This document shows, in pieces, positions 3,169 to 49,665 of a stretch of 64,000 nucleotides of DNA. The position numbers and the translations under genes were made by a program. The stretch is from Lunularia cruciata. Taxonomy: Eukaryota; Streptophyta; Marchantiopsida; Lunulariales; Lunulariaceae. The notes below the pieces were generated by a model. The model searched no databases. It was given only the letters and a program-made list of their open reading frames with translations, and had not been told where the DNA came from. The DNA lies in the NCBI GenBank assembly GCA_948567375.1, contig OX419755.1, positions 63,678,944 to 63,742,943 on the forward strand, written 5' to 3'. Within the stretch, counting starts at the first letter, position 1. Each line of letters starts with the position of its first letter.

Positions 3169-3769
3169 ATGGCGCAGAGTCTAGTTGCATCGCAGTATAG
3201 ATACACTATCAATTGCTGGAGTTTGGCTGTCTTTGGTCGTGTCATCTCGCCTCTTTTCACTGGACGAAGGTAGGCCCGGGTTTACAACGTGGTGACACGC
3301 GAAAAGCACTATCAAGACTTTCACCATACCTGTCGAATTTTCTAGCCAGAGGAATCCAGGTGACATCCTACGGTCTTGGTGTTTGAACTTCTTTCCTAGG
3401 TATAGTCACGAGTATACGCGGCTCTTCTGCGAGAAGGTAACTGGCCCGAGAATGTCGTGCAGAGATAATGTCTACGACAGTACCGTCCGCGTGGCGGAGA
3501 ATCTGAAAGGAGCCCGCGTGACTGGCAATAACTGGTTTTTCAACTTCACGGAGAAACGGATTGAAGCGTTCCACACGGACTTAACAACTTGGAATCACCT
3601 CCAAGTTGTCGTTGTGAATACGGTTGTCTCTATAGGTCAAATTCATGACACAGACAATGTACATACGTCAGGAATCATCACTCTTCAATGGGAAGAAATT
3701 AGCTTGAAGAAGCTCACGCATGGTCGTATCATCTCTTCGGTCGTATCATCTCTCTGTCCTTCCTTTTAA
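3169..3769 (+). CDS. Unknown small protein, two exons
   Basis: ATG at 3169 opens an exon to 3269, followed by a 130-base GT-AG intron (donor GTAGGC at 3270, acceptor CTAG before 3400) and a second exon to the TAA at 3769. The splice phase agrees (AG|G), giving 156 residues. I recognise no domain. The protein has a hydrophobic N-terminal part (about residues 14-30), then a polar section with several Cys, Trp and Phe residues; no clear second membrane helix is seen. Codon third positions are more G/C-rich than the surroundings, which favours real coding. It is convergent with the MinC-type gene, the two stop codons being about 180 bases apart. A second donor near the end of exon 2 could alter the C-terminus. 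Minus-strand frames here are shorter and lack matching splice sites. Confidence 0.45.
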
Positions 3770-3949
3770 GTCTCAAGAGTATATTTGTTGTATGACTTTA
3801 TTCATGATACCTACAAACGTGAGAATGTTACAAATTACAAGTGTATTCAGTACGTGTAAAGACTGGAGATTGGAAGTTATGAAAATAGGTTTGAAGCCAA
3901 ACAAGCTCTTAAGGAAAACCTATCTTGTGTTTGTAACTGGTGACAGAAC

Positions 3950-6546
3950 CTACACAACTTTCTGCTTTGCGAGGGCCTTCCACATCAACAAAGCTCCTAC
4001 CAAATTCACTGCTCCAACCTGAATCGCGAAAGGCCGAGAATAGGTACAGTTAGTAATATAAGTAGAAACGCCTACTTTTCCACATTTGATCTCGACATTG
4101 ACCATGTGTATTCTTGCTGGATGGTGCAATCTGTGCACATGCAACAAGCGTGATGTGTATGGCTAATCCAAGTTTTCACCACTAAAATTGTTTTAGCATT
4201 AACTTCTGAAATTCACGCAGCTTAACCACTTTGTAGGTTGACAACTGGTACCCTTGAAGAGAAGTTTTAAAAGCTGACGATTAGTTAATGCAAGGGAGAA
4301 ATAAAATGGAAGTTTATAACACCTGTCTGCGATGGTATATATTCCTGGTCTTAATTGTTTCCACTTAGCCCCCAGGCCAATGTGACGAAACATTTTCTTG
4401 CCCATGGGTAAAAACTGGTACTTTCAACCTTCAAATCTTTTTCCGTGCAACTTCTAACTTCTCAGGAGGCATGAATCCACTTTACTGATTGTTATACTAC
4501 AAAATTACTCAGTGATGGTGACATGAATTCTTAAAGGGTTGGGTAGGGTGCTCACAAGAAGGAGAGCAGACGGAACTGCACCGGTAACCACCAGCGTTGT
4601 AAAGCTCAAGAATAGAAACTGAGAAGCAAGCACGAATTACATGGGAGTTAGCATGAAAGGCATCTTTTGGTTACACCCGAAGTGCTTCCTTCTAGAAGTT
4701 GTTCGGCAGGACCGAACACGGCCTAAACTGAGACTACCTACTTGAAAACACCCAACAACCTACAGATGACTGAGAAGAAGTTATGGAATTACGCAGAACA
4801 GGTTAAACAGAACGGAAGAGGAGTAGGTTACTCACTGTCCGACCCACAACAGTGGAGTAGTAGAAAGCTTGTGCGCCATGGATACCTCTCAAATCTCCAA
4901 TTGCAGTACCGAGGTAATAGATTCCAAAGACCTGCAGGGAAGAAGCACTGGGTATATGACGGGGAACACAATCGTCTTGCGAAAAGAGCTGTGGTGAGTG
5001 CATGAGGAAAAATACACGCAACTGACAGGCATTTTAGCACCATGAGAGTGGATATATACATGACTTTCATACCACTGCCAAAACGGCTACAACTTGAATC
5101 CACCCGAGGGATACACCCTGTGTGGAAAAGAAAATTCCTGCATGCAGACCCAGACCAGGGGTTAGCTGATTGCTCCTACTAGGCAACTTGCTAATCTAAG
5201 GTTGGTAACTGTAATGTTCCATGATGAATGGCCAGATCAAATCCGAGCTGGTAGTGGATGTCGTTCAACACTAAACAAATTACTACTGACTGTGTAGCGA
5301 AGGCGCAAAGGGATGGTGCAGCAGTAGTTTATGTAGGGATTCTCTCCTTCAAGGCTTCTCTATATATTGTCCTGAGACTTTGGTTCTATACTCAAACAAG
5401 GCTCTTACCGAATAAAAACTTTGGAAAAGCAAGCAATGCCAAGCCTGCAACTGATATGTAGATTCCTGTGACAAGGGCAACCTGAGCTGGCTTTTTCTTT
5501 CTAAACCCCGCAGTTTGACTTCCTGAATCTTTAGAGAACTTCATTTTGTCCACAGTCGGGCTGCCGAGCTCTGTTTGGCAACTGTTGTCGCAGCTGGAAA
5601 CCTCCCCGAGTGTCCGATGAATTCTACCTTGCATCAAAGAACACAAGTTAAATGCACAGGCCATGCAATTTCAAGCAATAAAGCTCACTGCTGATGGGAC
5701 CTCCTCTTGGTTGTTCTTGCTAAAATGTTGATATAGGACTACTTCGTTGCAAAGTTACTTACGTTATGGTCCCATCAGGTGCGAGTCGGGCAAATAGAGG
5801 ACCAGAGTTCTCATTCGTAGGGAGCTGAAGCGTGGCCTGATCACCGATTTTGACAGTTCCTAGCTCATCCCACACAGCAAACACCTTTGCTGTATGATCT
5901 CCTGCTGTACCTGCGTGAGCATGCCCTTGCAGTCGGCCCAAAACTATCACATCTCCACCAGCTGAAACACACCCTCCGTGCTTCACATCTCCTAGGATCT
6001 GCACATAAGGGACAATCAGTTTCATGTTGGAACGAGCTAACATATTCACGAGAATTGTCTTTCAACCGTTACTCTGATAGAAGGACAGGGATAGATTCAG
6101 AGCAGATTCAGAGAAGATCTTACAATTACGGAACCAGGATGCTCCACAACCTCTCCCTCGCAAACCGTCCTCTTCAAATATATGCACTCAGTCTTCGTCT
6201 TATTCTCCTTTCCCAGCTGGCCCGATATTCTTCCTTCACCGCTTCTGTCAGGGACATTCTCATTCCTGTGGCTACAGGAAATTTTCATGTCGTTCACTCT
6301 GAATCCACCAGGACTGCGGTCATAAAAGGCACTGCTGAGAAACAACAATTGATCTTCCATGAAATTGCATCCTCTCCAACCAAATCCACATTTCTGAACA
6401 TTTGCACCCCAATTTCTGGCGGTGCTTATTCTGCACAAATTAGCACTCGTTCTTCTCCTTGGAGAGAGGCTGATACTGCCAAAGCCAGGAAAATCGACCC
6501 AGATAACAGGATCCCCACGCAAAGCACGTAGAACTGGGCTACCCAT
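3950..6546 (-). CDS. MinC-type division-site protein fused to a four-helix membrane domain
   Basis: Seven exons on the minus strand: 6546-6124, 5998-5763, 5623-5409, 5137-5073, 4931-4836, 4618-4556, 4018-3950. Every junction is GT-AG with agreeing phase, giving 388 residues. Residues 1 to about 60 are rich in Ser, Arg and Thr and look like a plastid transit peptide. Residues about 122-198 match the MinC C-terminal beta-helix domain, with the landmark words ILGDV, GGDVIVLGRLQG and HAHAG. In bacteria this domain dimerises, binds MinD and blocks FtsZ rings. A polar linker ending in Arg/Lys residues leads to four hydrophobic segments at about 267-291, 301-323, 346-366 and 367-383, one per late exon. 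I recognise no MinC N-terminal domain. Angiosperms are known to use ARC3 in place of MinC. Alternative reading: two genes, since exon 2 runs into a stop directly inside its donor and an ATG (5664) lies just upstream of exon 3. The good donor GTAAGT and phase favour one gene. Confidence 0.78.
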
Positions 6547-7063: not shown

Positions 7064-7957
7064 ATGAGGGCTTTAGGGATATGGCTGATCGTTGTCGGAT
7101 TCATGCGTCTTTCTTCCGTTTGGTTTGGTTTCTTCGACATACGGGCCTTGCGGGTGGCCGTTTTCTCCAAAACTGAGAGTGAGTTTCTTCTTCTGTTTGA
7201 TTTTTGCTAGCAGATTGTGCAGGAACCTTCGCGTTGAAGAGTTAGGTTCCTGATCGGGGTAAGATCTTTGTTATCCCTGCATTGCGATTCTATCGTCTTC
7301 AGTGACCTATTCACATGGAATGGAAATGGGAACGTAAAACATCACTCTGGGCAATCCACATTGTTTCAAACAACTCGATTTCTTGCTCACATGTTCTTCC
7401 CTTACAATTTTCTTAGTGCTTGCTGATATTGTAACAATTTGAAAGCTTCTCAAGTAACTAGTAGATCGATCGTCCACATTCAGCTAGGGTGAACTAATTT
7501 TCAGTTTGAGAAGTGTCTGCTAATAAAGGGCTAATTGTTGTGAAAATGAACAGTGTCAGAAATTCACGGAAGGACTTTTGGAACGTGGACCCTCGTCACT
7601 TGCACTCTGTGCATCATTACCGCCAACAATCTGGACAACAAGCCCCTTTATTTAACCACTTTACTCTCGTTCGTGTACGCTCTTACGCATTTCATCACGG
7701 AGGTCTTTATTTATGAGACCATGGCAATTAAAAACCTTGCCACAGTGAGCCTATTTGCAGGTTTACGATCTAATTTCCTCTCTTGTATTTTGGTTTATTT
7801 CACTTGAGGTGGGTCTTTTGTTAACAGGTAAAAATGTGAATATCTTTAGCTTCAATGTCTGACTTTTGTCTTTGGGCTGTATGCAGTGCCATCGCTTGTG
7901 TGGATGATCGTGGAGTGGCCCAAAATTGGTCAAGCGAAATCTGTAAAGCAGGTTTAA
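7064..7957 (+). CDS. ERG28: ERG28, ER sterol-biosynthesis scaffold protein
   Basis: Three exons, 7064-7178, 7554-7760 and 7887-7957, with GT-AG introns of 375 and 126 bases and agreeing phases, give 130 residues, the usual plant ERG28 length. The start is the ATG at 7064. Family landmarks read directly: WFGFFDIRALR and FSKTE in exon 1; HGRTFGTWTL, NKPLYL, HFITE and KNLATV in exon 2; a short basic C-terminus in exon 3. The protein is a small ER membrane protein with about four hydrophobic segments. ERG28 is known in yeast and plants to tether the sterol C-4 demethylation enzymes (ERG25/26/27 or the plant SMO/CSD/SR complex). It is divergent from the MinC-type gene. No oddity is seen; the gene looks whole. 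Confidence 0.93.
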
Positions 7958-15413: not shown

Positions 15414-15781
15414 CTAGATACTAATTACCTACCTACTTCTATAGGGATTGTGTGTAGTATAATATTAGAGGTCGCTCAATTGATTATGCATTCCCATTCA
15501 TTCTCAACAAGTGACTTATTTACATTGGGAGTTGATCCAACTCTAATGTTCTAGTTTGTTGCCATTTGCAGAAGTAAGAATGTTGTGGTTCCTACTTCTA
15601 GATACTAATTACCTACCTACTTCTATAGGGATTGTGTGTAGTATAATATTAGAGGTCGCTCAATTGATTATGCATTCCCATTCATTCTCAACAAGTGACT
15701 TATTTACATTGGGAGTTGACCCAACTCTAATGTTCTAGTTTGTTGCCATTTGCAGAAGTAAGAATGTTGTGGTTCCTACTT
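15414..15781 (+). repeat. Near-perfect 184-base tandem duplication
   Basis: 15414-15597 and 15598-15781 differ at one position by my reading (T versus C in the GTTGA(T/C)CCAAC word). Both copies start with CTAGATACTAATT. It lies inside the decayed gag/protease region of Gypsy-1, so it is much younger than the element. Confidence 0.92.
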
Positions 15782-17223
15782 CTAGAGCAAAGGTGGTTGA
15801 TGGTGGAGCCTATTTGGTTGAGGAACATGGGATCTACTCAACTATGAATGGCTTATGGTAAGCAATAATTTCTAGATTGGAGGAGTTACCTACTAGACTT
15901 GCATTTGAGAAGCTTGGTTTATAATAGGGGTTGTCCAATTGGATAAATAGAGTGTCATTTTCAATTTAAGTGGACCTTCAAGGAAGTTCTACACACCACA
16001 AAGGGTCTTATTGGACTCTAGTGCATAGCTCTTTATGTTGGAAAAGGCTAAAATTGTCAATATTAAGTTACAAAAGAACAATGTAGAGAGGTGTCTATTT
16101 TAGATCTAGATATCTCTAGGAAGTGGTTCCACCTAGTACATCACATATGGAGAGCTTATTGTCCAAATTCAACCTAGTCATCTGATTGGTAGTTCTATGA
16201 TGAGAGCTCAAGCCATTACAATAGTAGAAGAGTCATATGATTTGCTAGTTGGTGGAATAGTGTCATATCCCATGAGTTTCAACATTGACTATTAAGAGGA
16301 GATAACTTCCTATAGGCCAAGTGTTAGGAATGAAAATTTGCTATCTAGGAACAAGGTCAATCATCCAAACAAGATCAATCATCAACATACATAGAGTTTT
16401 ATGTGGTTTGGCCAAGAATCTAAGTATGCTCACAATTGCATTGATGCTTTATTAGGGTACTCAATCAAAAATTTACAATGTGCTCCTTTAATCATACAAG
16501 CCTTAACCAAACTTGCCAAGGTTTTTAGAGAGTCATGAAATAAAAAACTCTAGTTGGACTCTAGACTCAACACCAAGTTTGCAATTAGGTGAGGGATGTG
16601 TATGTTGCTTATTGGTGCACATTAGTAGTGGTAGTCTTGGCTCACTTAGTCAAGGATAATGATATCAATCTCTACTTTCAATGGTTCTATTACTTGGCTT
16701 GGTGAGTTATTGGAGGAGGATGCATATGTGGAGGATACCCTAGTACTAGAGGAGATCACTCAGATTTGGAGTACAAGTGTGGTTGTTCCATCCACCTTAG
16801 ATATTCCTCTATGGAGTCCTGATGAAGAGTTGCAACATCATGCTGATAGGTTGGTCCAATAGGCTTGGAGTGGAGCACTTATATCACTAGTAGACCAATT
16901 TGAGGATGACACTCCGTAGCTATTACCTTATCACCTTTGGATACCACACCTATTGCTAGGCAATATCTAGTGGAGGGAGTATTACTATTGGATTTTTTTG
17001 GTGAGATCAACATTGGGCTAGTTGTGTAATTGCAAGCATACATAATGTGGTTTGAAGGTACTACGTGGAGAGAAGATGGACTATTAGAAGAGTCTCTCTA
17101 CATCATGTGGCTTACTTGGCTTATTGGTATCTAGAGTTAATACTAATGTTAACAGTTGTGACTTACCAAATGACCCTACCATTAGACATTTCCTTAGGAG
17201 GAGATAACTTCCTATAGGCCAAG

Positions 17224-32673: not shown

Positions 32674-34909
32674 ATGAGGTGGAACAAGGTATCGCGGGGT
32701 ATGAATTCCAGTAGATATTTGACAATGATTCTGCGGTTGCTGGTCCTCTACTTGTCGCAACATTCTCATAACGCGGACGCTCAAGACTCCCCTTCAGATG
32801 CACAGCCGATCGAAGTTACCTGTGGGGGTTCGCTAAGTGCAGGCAGAACCTGTTCGCTTGGAACTAATATAGTCTATATAGAAGAGGGAAGGGTAGGTTA
32901 TTATCTTGACGTGCACTATACACAGGAGCCATTTATATTTGGTGAGTGGGAAGCCTGAAACAGGCAGTGCGGAACTAAATTGCCATGAAGTTTTTGGTGT
33001 GAGATCTTTCAACACAATGCTGTCATGTTTACACGATCTAGGATTTTATTTGGATGTGGAGTTGAACGCTTGGTTATATTATGGACGGTCTTGTATTTAG
33101 CACATTTGTTGTCGTACTGCTGCCCTTAGCAGCAGCCCATTTGTAGCCAATGTATCGAAGCGTCTCAATCATGCTAGCCATTTCTCCTTCCAGTTATGAT
33201 TCATAATTGTCACATTTTCTAGAGTCTACCTTCTGCTATTAGGAAGACAGTTCCTTTCTAGCTTTCACGTAAGGGATTCTGTGACTCCCAACGCTACCGC
33301 TTGTCGACGAAGGAAGGTGTTTGCGAACTACTGAGTATATTTACCGCTGAGATCTATCTGAGACCCTGAAATCCTCTCAAGTTTCCTCAGAACCTCTCTT
33401 GTTCTGATTAGCCATGGGTGTGACAATGTTATGATGGTGAAATTTTCCTATATATAATCTGCTCAAAGAGTAGAGAGGATCTGTGCAAATTAGATAGGCA
33501 ATGGAAGATGACAGACATAGTTCATGGAGATACTGATATAGTACAGTTTGTTCTATTGTGCAGTATTGAAGCTTGAGCAGCCCATGGATGCTCAGAAGAA
33601 CCTCATAGAAACTCGGGACTTGACCTTGAAGAAGGCGGCAGACGACTGTGTGAAAACTGAAAATTTTACCGATGGGGAGGCAACGATAAAAGATCATGAT
33701 GGTGGTGATATTCAACTCTTTAAGAGCGAAAGTTGCCCGACTGGATATGCGCTCCTGACCATCAAATTCTCAGATTCAAGCAACAGCTCTCCTAAAAGTT
33801 CCAACTTTAGCAGCCTGGGCCTGGGGTTAGGCCTAGGCATTGGATTTCTGGTTGTGATCATTTTTGTGTGCATTGTAGTGATGCGAAGAAGGTCCTGGCA
33901 CAGATTGAGTCCCATAATCAGCAGGGGTTCAAAGGACAGCGATTTTAACCCCAAGGACCTATCGGATCTGGAAGTTGGAGGACCTCACGCATTTACTTAC
34001 AAAGAACTAAGTTCTGCAACCCACAATTTCGATTCAAAGTACGTCGTGGGGGAAGGCGGATTTGGCACCGTTTACCAAGGAACATTGCGCGACACCGGCT
34101 ACCGAGTAGCCATCAAACGATTATCTCAGTACGCAAGGCAGGGGGCACGGGAGTTCATAGCCGAAGTGAAGATTATCAGCCAGCTACGCCACAGAAATCT
34201 CGTCCAACTTCTCGGGTGGTGCGATGACAATAACGAGCTGATTCTGGTCTACGAATACATGCCAAATGGCGACCTCGACGAAATGATTTACGCTGACAAA
34301 CCAAAATGTGATCTCTCCTGGAAGCAGAGATACAATATTCTCTGTGGCGTTGCCACTGCTCTGGTATACCTCCACGAGGAGTGGGAGCAACGGGTGGTGC
34401 ACAGAGATGTGAAGACCAGTAACGTCATGCTCGATTCTACGTTAAATGCTCGACTTGGAGACTTTGGTCTGGCGAGACTGTCAGCACATAGCCAGGCTCC
34501 ACAGAGCACTCTGGTTGCTGGCACGCTGGGTTATTTAGCTCCTGAGTTTAGTCTCTCAGGCAAGGCCACAGATAAGACGGACGTTTATGCTTTCGGAGTG
34601 GTGGCACTGGAGGTTACTTGCGCAAGAAGACCTTTGTCACCTGATCTGGTTTTGGTGGATTGGGTGTGGGACCATCACAAAAACGAGACTCTTCTGAATG
34701 CCGTCGATCCGAAGCTTGACCCCAGAAGTACCGAGGAGGAGCGTCAGATGCAAAAAGTTCTGCAAATTGGTCTTCTTTGCGCTCATCCCGATATGAATGT
34801 CAGACCTTCCATGCGACTAGTTCGCAACATACTCACAGGCGAGGCTGACCTTCCTCGAGTACCACGATCTAAGCCAGTAGCTTCCTACTTCCAAGAGGAC
34901 GACGACTGA
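32674..34909 (+). CDS. Receptor-like kinase with short non-lectin ectodomain (LecRK-type kinase)
   Basis: Two exons, 32674-32941 and 33564-34909, join in phase (G|TA) over a 622-base intron with a GTGAGT donor, giving 537 residues. Residues about 1-36 are a signal peptide; 37-173 form a short ectodomain with four Cys, one NFT glycosylation site and no legume-lectin, LRR or other fold that I recognise; 174-196 is a membrane helix followed by RRR; the kinase runs from about 246 to 520. Catalytic landmarks are intact: GEGGFG loop 252-257, Lys274 in VAIK, Glu290, HRD 369-371 (an RD kinase), DFG 389-391, APE 415-417. The kinase sequence is closest in style to L-type lectin receptor kinases, which sense extracellular signals at the plasma membrane. 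A second ATG at 32701 would still leave a signal peptide. An extra ectodomain exon within the intron cannot be excluded. Confidence 0.85.
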
Positions 34910-47600: not shown

Positions 47601-49665
47601 CTATAATATCAGGATCCAAAACCACCATCTGTATAGGCCTTCTTTGGTACACCTTCAGACTCTTGTTTGGTGAACCATCAACTTCACATAGAGATTGCTC
47701 TTCTAATGATTGATCTGAAAAACTGACTCTGCAGTTTGGGAAGATGGGTTGATCAGGCTAATCAAACTGATCAACTTGCCTCTGCAACTCATCACTGTTC
47801 TCACTCCAAGTCCTGAATTCATCAAAGAGTACATCTCTACTTCTGATGATCTGTCCAAACTTAGGATTGTACAAAAGATATCCTTTCAGTCCCTCTTCAT
47901 ATCCTACAAAGAGCATTCTCTTAGCTTTCTTTGTGAAATTCCTCCTTTGCTCCATGGGAATATGAACATAGGCAGGACATATAGTAGTCTGCTCCACTCA
48001 ATGACTTCTCAATCATGTATCCCCGTACATCAAAATGTATGACATCTAGAAGACCAAAAGCTCGAGATGAAAATTTCTTGGGGATAGGAGCTTTGTGTGC
48101 CTTACATTTTGCACACCCAATGCAGACCTCAAGTTCTCCTTTGAGATCCATTTTCAACCCATCCACTACCTTCTCTAAAGCATATAGGTTTTGCACTGAC
48201 AAGTGCCCTAACCTCAAATGCCACAGATGGATATCATTTCTGTTTTTTGCTACCAATGTAGAATCAAAACAATTAGCTTCCATCAACTTGAACAACTTCC
48301 CTTTGGTAGTGCCATATCCAAGGACCAGCTCTCCTTTCTTCAAAGTGCATTGATTTCTGTTGCTTTCAAATAGAACATCCACACCATGCTCCATGAGGAG
48401 ATGTACTGATATCAAGTTCTTGGTGTAGTTTGGAACATAGAGCACATCTTCCAAATAGCTCTTACAAGAACTTTTGTTAGATCTTCCCATGAAGGCAATA
48501 GGAACTTTGCCAGACACTAGATTCAGAATCCCAAGTCAGCAACAAACACTCTTGGGAATCTTCAGAGGTTGAAGAGTTGAGAACAACTCCTTTTGGTAAT
48601 AGATATGAGAGGTGGCTCCAAAATCCAAGAACCATCCAGAACCATTTGTGGACAACTACAATTCTACCAACATTCCATAATCTAGCTCTTCTGCTGAGTA
48701 CTCCTCCTCATTACTTTCCATCTCATTGCAGTCCTCTATGTTGTAAGCTAAACTAGCAAATATTTGACCTTTTTTTGGTTGAGGTCCTTTGCTTACCTTC
48801 TTCATCTCTCTTTCTCTCCATTCTCTTCTCTTGGGACATATAGATGCAACATGACCTTTCTCATGATAGAAATAACAGGTCCTGTTATCAACACTACTAA
48901 CCCCTTTACCAGATTTACTCACTTTGGATTGCTTTGGTTTGATCACTCTTCTATCTGGCACTCTCCTTGACTGTGAAGATGCATTGAGCAGAGCAAAATC
49001 TCCCAAATCTTTAAACTTCATCTCTAGGTCCTTGTTGTCTTTGCTAAACACCAACAATTTGTTTATCAAATAATCCCATGTGACAACTTCAACAAGTAGA
49101 ACTTTTAGAGCTATTTTGATAGGCTGGTAGCTTGGAGGGAGAGTCTTCAAGAGGTGGTTGATCTCATATTTCTTTGTAAGGAGACACCCATCCTCCTTGG
49201 GTGTCCCCCTTGGAGACCTTTTGTAACTTTGACAAGTGCAAAGTAAAGTCTTCATCATCTGCAAGTTTAGTATTCCACATCCCATCCCAGATCCTATTGG
49301 AACTTTCCAGCCTCTCAACAGAATAAAAATTCCTGAGTTTGAGCTGATCTTCCAACTCCAAGCATAAGTGTCTACTAGGTCTCTGATTGGCTCTTGCATA
49401 GCCCTTAGCAAAAACCTCCTAATAGTAGAATGCTTGATTCTCTCCTCCTTGTTGGACTCAAGCTCATCTATAGCATGAGCTTCTAATGCTAAGTCTAAAC
49501 AATCATAATTGTCTAGGATACACTTCACATCCAAAGCCCAGGCTTTGTAATTAGTGTTTCCTAGTTTCTCTAGCTCTTTGAGTTCTCCTATCAACCCCAA
49601 AGGTGATTGTGGGCCCATAACTTGATGAGAAGTTTTCTTCCTAGTCTTTGAAGAAGATGGTCTAT

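Follow-up and report, generated by a model that had tools for sequence, protein, structure and literature searches.

A possible fusion of a MinC-type beta-helix with a four-helix membrane domain in a nuclear gene of Lunularia cruciata

Can a plant protein unite, in a single chain, the C-terminal beta-helix of MinC and a membrane domain that would anchor it? The question is raised by a gene model on the minus strand of the window (the whole stretch of 64,000 nucleotides of Lunularia cruciata DNA analysed here), which a sequence-only reading had taken for a plastid MinC with its own membrane anchor. In bacteria, the C-terminal domain of MinC is reported to dimerise and to bind both MinD and the C-terminal tail of FtsZ, and, when overexpressed alone, to inhibit Z-rings, perhaps because it competes for the FtsZ tail with FtsA and ZipA (PMC3618327, PMC6803595). 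A plastid MinC would not in itself be novel, since MinC or MinC-like genes have already been reported in the moss Physcomitrium (PMC10030945, PMC5855766), in Chlamydomonas (PMC4641359) and in Cyanophora (PMC4015805). Compared here through their descriptions only, the MinC-like gene of Physcomitrium patens and the MinC of Chlamydomonas and Cyanophora indicate that the green and glaucophyte lines have retained MinC. No description of a MinC with a membrane domain was found in the literature searched, a collection without most subscription journals. Our preferred reading, to which we give a probability of about 0.5, is that a single nuclear plant gene encodes a fusion between the C-terminal beta-helix of MinC and a four-helix membrane domain belonging to an unnamed bacterial family.

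The gene model and its MinC half

The minus-strand model from 6546 to 3950 could be rebuilt exactly from the window, with seven exons, a product of 388 amino acids followed by a TAG stop, and six introns that are all GT-AG with matching phases, so that the layout first proposed was reproduced base for base. Its features, together with those that bear on the alternatives, are the following:

6124..6546 (-): exon 1, 141 codons; ATG with A at -3 and G at +4; MinC_C begins here
6124..6177 (-): exon 1 portion of the MinC_C match, with CEGE at the place of the MinD-binding RSGQ
5763..5998 (-): exon 2, most of the MinC_C beta-helix (GGDVIVLGRLQGHAHAG)
5624..5762 (-): intron 2, the joining intron in dispute; donor GTAAGT, acceptor GGTAG
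5409..5664 (-): alternative first exon of a stand-alone membrane protein of 182 residues; ATG 5664, T at -3
5409..5623 (-): exon 3, linker and first predicted transmembrane helix
5073..5137 (-): exon 4, loop and beginning of predicted helix 2
4836..4931 (-): exon 5, remainder of predicted helix 2, loop and beginning of predicted helix 3
4556..4618 (-): exon 6, predicted helix 3 with FTTLVVTG, then a turn
3950..4018 (-): exon 7, predicted helix 4, basic C-terminus and stop
3797..3802 (-): AATAAA, some 150 nt beyond the stop in exon 7; no other lies on this strand from 7100 to 3600

The identification of a MinC C-terminal domain read across exons 1 and 2 proved genuine: Pfam MinC_C matches exon 2 alone with E=1.3e-13 and the two exons joined with 2.2e-18 (residues 124-203, 66.6 bits versus a cut-off of 33.2), and this gain upon joining supports intron 1. 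Four solved MinC chains were also matched, the best being that of Aquifex (2.6e-14), followed by Thermotoga (6.2e-8) and two weaker ones (0.00098 and 0.037), which is in line with the beta-helix that the plant protein has in common with bacterial MinC (E. coli b1176; Aquifex 4v02; Thermotoga 1hf2). The NCBIfam models of full-length MinC, which match mainly over the C-terminal domain, stay far below their cut-offs (NF001778, 68.3 bits versus 315; TIGR01222, 57.7 versus 95.25). As for MinC_N, no Pfam match was obtained in exon 1 or in the three minus-strand frames scanned upstream of it, a result to be read knowing that this domain is reported to be so divergent that the Pfam entry overlooks some of its members (PMC3618327).

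There are further differences from bacterial MinC. The RSGQ motif through which MinC binds MinD (PMC5548801, PMC6803595), present as RAGQ in Aquifex and as RSGQ in Thermotoga and E. coli, is aligned with CEGE in the plant protein, the G alone being kept; this is as expected if an anchored MinC half would no longer need MinD. In addition, exon 1 starts with an Arg-rich, acid-poor stretch (3% acidic and 15% R/K residues among the first 60) that resembles a transit peptide by its composition, giving the protein an organelle-type N-terminal extension on that count. Finally, the plant frame runs on into the membrane domain if the acceptor at 5623 is used for intron 2.

Which organelle would such an extension serve? 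In Nannochloropsis, MinC and MinD are predicted to be targeted to mitochondria (PMC3499364), and the MinC half could by analogy belong to a mitochondrial, rather than plastid, Min system of the kind reported for heterokonts. We consider this very improbable, given a gene context that looks like that of a land plant (an Erg28 neighbour), a setting in which MinC is discussed for plastids (PMC10030945).

The neighbour in question is an ERG28-like gene at about 7064-7950 on the plus strand, with Pfam Erg28 matching one of its exons (7550-7807) at 1.3e-21. It lies on the opposite strand to the MinC gene and faces away from it, with 517 bases between the two start codons, and the two genes possibly share a promoter; we presume that it resembles plant ERG28. 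On the other side, an open frame at 3296-3766 (plus strand) converges on the 3' end of the MinC gene, its Alginate_lyase2 match being below threshold (0.0035, 17.6 bits versus a cut-off of 29.7). Farther away, the window contains a serine/threonine-tyrosine kinase domain encoded by one open frame of 455 codons (33542-34906, plus strand; 3.1e-47), retrotransposon remains (47924-48535, minus strand; gag_pre-integrs 2.8e-9 and Pol_BBD 2.7e-6) and, at 15414-15786, two tandem copies of 184 bases, whose near identity (99%) points to a recent duplication. Taken together, the introns, the Erg28 neighbour and the retrotransposon domains are marks of eukaryotic DNA, most likely that of a land plant. No RNA families or tRNAs were reported in its 64,000 nt.

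MinC_C was not found in the one relative genome tried (G001, 0/1), while 6/14 control genomes were positive, and searches of viral contigs and plasmids gave no relative of either the MinC half or the membrane half.

A membrane half with bacterial relatives

Neither Pfam, NCBIfam and PHROGs nor the sequences and folds of the PDB yielded a significant match to the membrane half (exons 3-7). TIGR04154, DUF4257, PufX, SMK1 and DUF3040 were discarded as its family, all of them falling below cut-off, as were three rows of PDB sequences with E of 0.5 or worse.

Relatives were found among bacteria. When bacterial and archaeal genomes were scanned, 320 pattern matches included eight relatives, from two Planobispora, one Planomonospora, four Nonomuraea and one Ktedonobacteria genome, and profile searches, whose queries for the phyla of genomes G001 and G002 included the plant row, detected members of the four-helix family in 12/201 genomes of the phylum of G001 and 5/246 of that of G002. 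The single plant membrane sequence reached 1.4e-6 at best against bacterial frames in blastp. A profile of bacterial rows only scored 47.6 bits on the plant domain, the best of 1000 shuffles reaching 8.7, with the mild circularity that part of those rows had been recruited via a profile including the plant one. Identity between the plant domain and these unnamed bacterial proteins (L001 from Planobispora, L003 from Ktedonobacteria and others) is 26-33%. FTTLVVTG of exon 6 is identical in the five aligned rows of the closest relatives, and invariant G, P, R and GA positions are common to plant and bacterial proteins across exon borders. These sequence comparisons show homology between the membrane half and bacterial proteins.

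This homology also bears on the gene model, since exons 3-7 align, from KKPAQ onward, with bacterial proteins encoded in a single frame, the linker before KKPAQ lying outside those alignments. Introns 4-6 are thereby well supported; intron 3, whose junction is next to a gap in the alignment, is less so.

How many helices does the domain have? Four hydrophobic segments had been counted in the five exons. The membrane domain itself stands; the hydropathy scan of the plant protein merges the last two segments, and the count of four rests on the structure predicted for the Ktedonobacteria relative (L003), a model with four long helices (pLDDT 87.7, from 15 aligned bacterial sequences) to which Foldseek matched no solved structure at a threshold of E 0.001.

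Three bacterial genomes contain two members of the family each, with clearly different scores (L019 and L025 in G008, L013 and L024 in G123, L016 and L023 in G163), so that the family has subgroups. When 10 of the 22 distinct bacterial four-helix frames were scanned whole, none showed a Pfam match above family cut-off, be it for another domain or for a family of their own; MinC is thus not attached to the membrane domain in those 10 frames. This is one of the points in favour of reading the plant locus as two proteins, considered below.

Intron 2: one protein or two?

It is intron 2 that decides whether the MinC and membrane halves belong to a single protein. According to splice scores derived from our own approximate plant consensus matrices, which were not trained on this genome, its donor at 5762 (GTAAGT) ranks 5 of 198 GTs, its acceptor at 5623 (GGTAG) ranks 46 of 211 with a score of -0.01, and a competing acceptor four bases upstream, gcaAG at 5627, ranks 61 of 211 with -1.05. 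The donor contains the in-frame TAA of MinC (5761-5759), and use of the 5627 acceptor gives a TAG at the same residue. The mediocre acceptor at 5623 and the stop that its neighbour brings back both speak against the fusion. In the ranges tested, 5762-5623 was the best-scoring of 26 phase-compatible, stop-free joins. An equal or better join of this kind with GT-AG ends arose, however, in 424/2000 shuffles with a restricted acceptor range, so that agreeing phases carry little weight at intron 2. A looser null, with acceptors anywhere in exon 3, also says that chance joins are common, 914/1000 shuffles reaching the best join of the real sequence; as that join is one other than 5762-5623, the restricted-range null was mainly relied on.

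Could the locus then make two proteins, from adjacent genes or from one dicistronic transcript? There would be a soluble MinC_C of 220 residues and a separate four-helix organelle protein of 182 residues with its own targeting peptide, an arrangement that we regard as possible, if rather unlikely. The stop inside the donor, met again with the 5627 acceptor, fits it. ATG 5664 opens the membrane frame alone, and its product (MACAFNLCSLMQGR...) has no acidic residue in the first 20, although acidic residues make up 10% of the first 40. The MinC stop falls near the end of E. coli MinC, in a part where the pairwise alignment is loose. Against this, only 94 nt separate that stop from ATG 5664, which leaves little room for a 3' end and a promoter and therefore favours the fusion; the gap does contain a TATATC element, though one at variance with TATAWAW. 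Of the two start contexts, that of ATG 6546 is the better, and the T at -3 of ATG 5664 counts against separate initiation. Past the MinC stop there is no AATAAA until 3802. Since plant poly(A) signals are loose, the position of the sole AATAAA past exon 7 is mild evidence for one gene. Among 20,000 shuffles, 2.2% had a donor as strong as 5762 over the stop, and a donor stronger than chance usually places there speaks against two proteins as well.

Exon 3 offers one more splice option, from a donor at 5627 to an acceptor at 5522 (scores 2.55 and 3.37), which would suit a stand-alone gene. The corresponding mini-intron of 105 bases (5627-5523) has good scores at both ends, but was rejected for its exon-like composition (GC 0.50, T 0.20), a feature that also tells against two proteins. 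This in-frame stretch of the minus strand may be due to chance or be an optional mini-intron.

There is also the less probable alternative of one gene with two products, in which the tandem acceptor (AAG/GTAG) or the retention of intron 2 would switch between the soluble MinC_C of 220 amino acids and the anchored form of 388. All three outcomes were read out exactly, retention and the 5627 acceptor leading to an identical soluble protein, and the scores of the two acceptors are similar (-1.05 and -0.01); chance also yields tandem AGs, though. That this four-base tandem acceptor turns the anchoring of a membrane-fixed MinC, independent of MinD, on and off strikes us as improbable. If true, splicing or retention would set soluble against anchored MinC_C, and thereby mobile against fixed control of Z-rings, at the RNA level.

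On balance, we infer joining in the mRNA, and hence MinC_C and membrane domain in one protein, at the rough probability given at the outset.

Consequences of a possibly anchored MinC

How would the fused protein work? The extension encoded by exon 1 would act as an organelle-targeting peptide, after which the four helices would insert into a plastid membrane, probably the inner envelope, leaving the beta-helix to face the stroma. Stretches of basic residues are most evident ahead of helix 1 (RKKK) and behind helix 4, and by the positive-inside rule these flanking residues would place the MinC half in the stroma. There it may dimerise and bind the conserved C-terminal peptide of FtsZ directly, having reached the membrane without MinD. 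ARC6 binds the FtsZ tail; ARC6 and other membrane tethers would face competition from a MinC half occupying that tail, so that Z-rings would not form where the protein sits. ARC6 and PARC6, plastid proteins that span the membrane and are described as part of the FtsZ ring system (PMC5855766), are likened to it for mechanism only.

The fused anchor and the lost RSGQ suggest, at the level of sequence, a MinC_C that reaches the membrane alone and acts there on the FtsZ tail. As MinC_N, the part acting on FtsZ assembly in bacteria, was not detected, a classical inhibitor on the one hand and a tether, or a protein competing for the tail of FtsZ, on the other are equally likely roles. What survives of the plastid MinC with its own anchor is a MinC-type domain, a conserved family's membrane domain and an open reading frame joining them, whereas the joining in the mRNA and the plastid location are inferred; of the membrane-fixed FtsZ inhibition without MinD, also proposed at first, CEGE in place of RSGQ agrees with independence from MinD, and the effect on FtsZ would follow from the mechanism above.

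If this is right, the protein would do a job similar to that of ARC3, the MinC analogue of angiosperm plastids, which differs in being built of an FtsZ domain and MORN repeats (PMC8964177) and is no homologue of MinC. ARC3 is reported to be missing from Physcomitrium and Selaginella (PMC8964177), and in Physcomitrium, according to one suggestion, its absence is made up for by a MinC-like gene (PMC10030945). The fusion, if true, would be a first hint of a use for a four-helix membrane family that has no Pfam family in our scans. It bears on how seed-free plants without ARC3 place their plastid division ring, and a MinC domain permanently tied to the membrane and devoid of the MinD motif would represent a Min protein outside the MinD/MinE oscillator.
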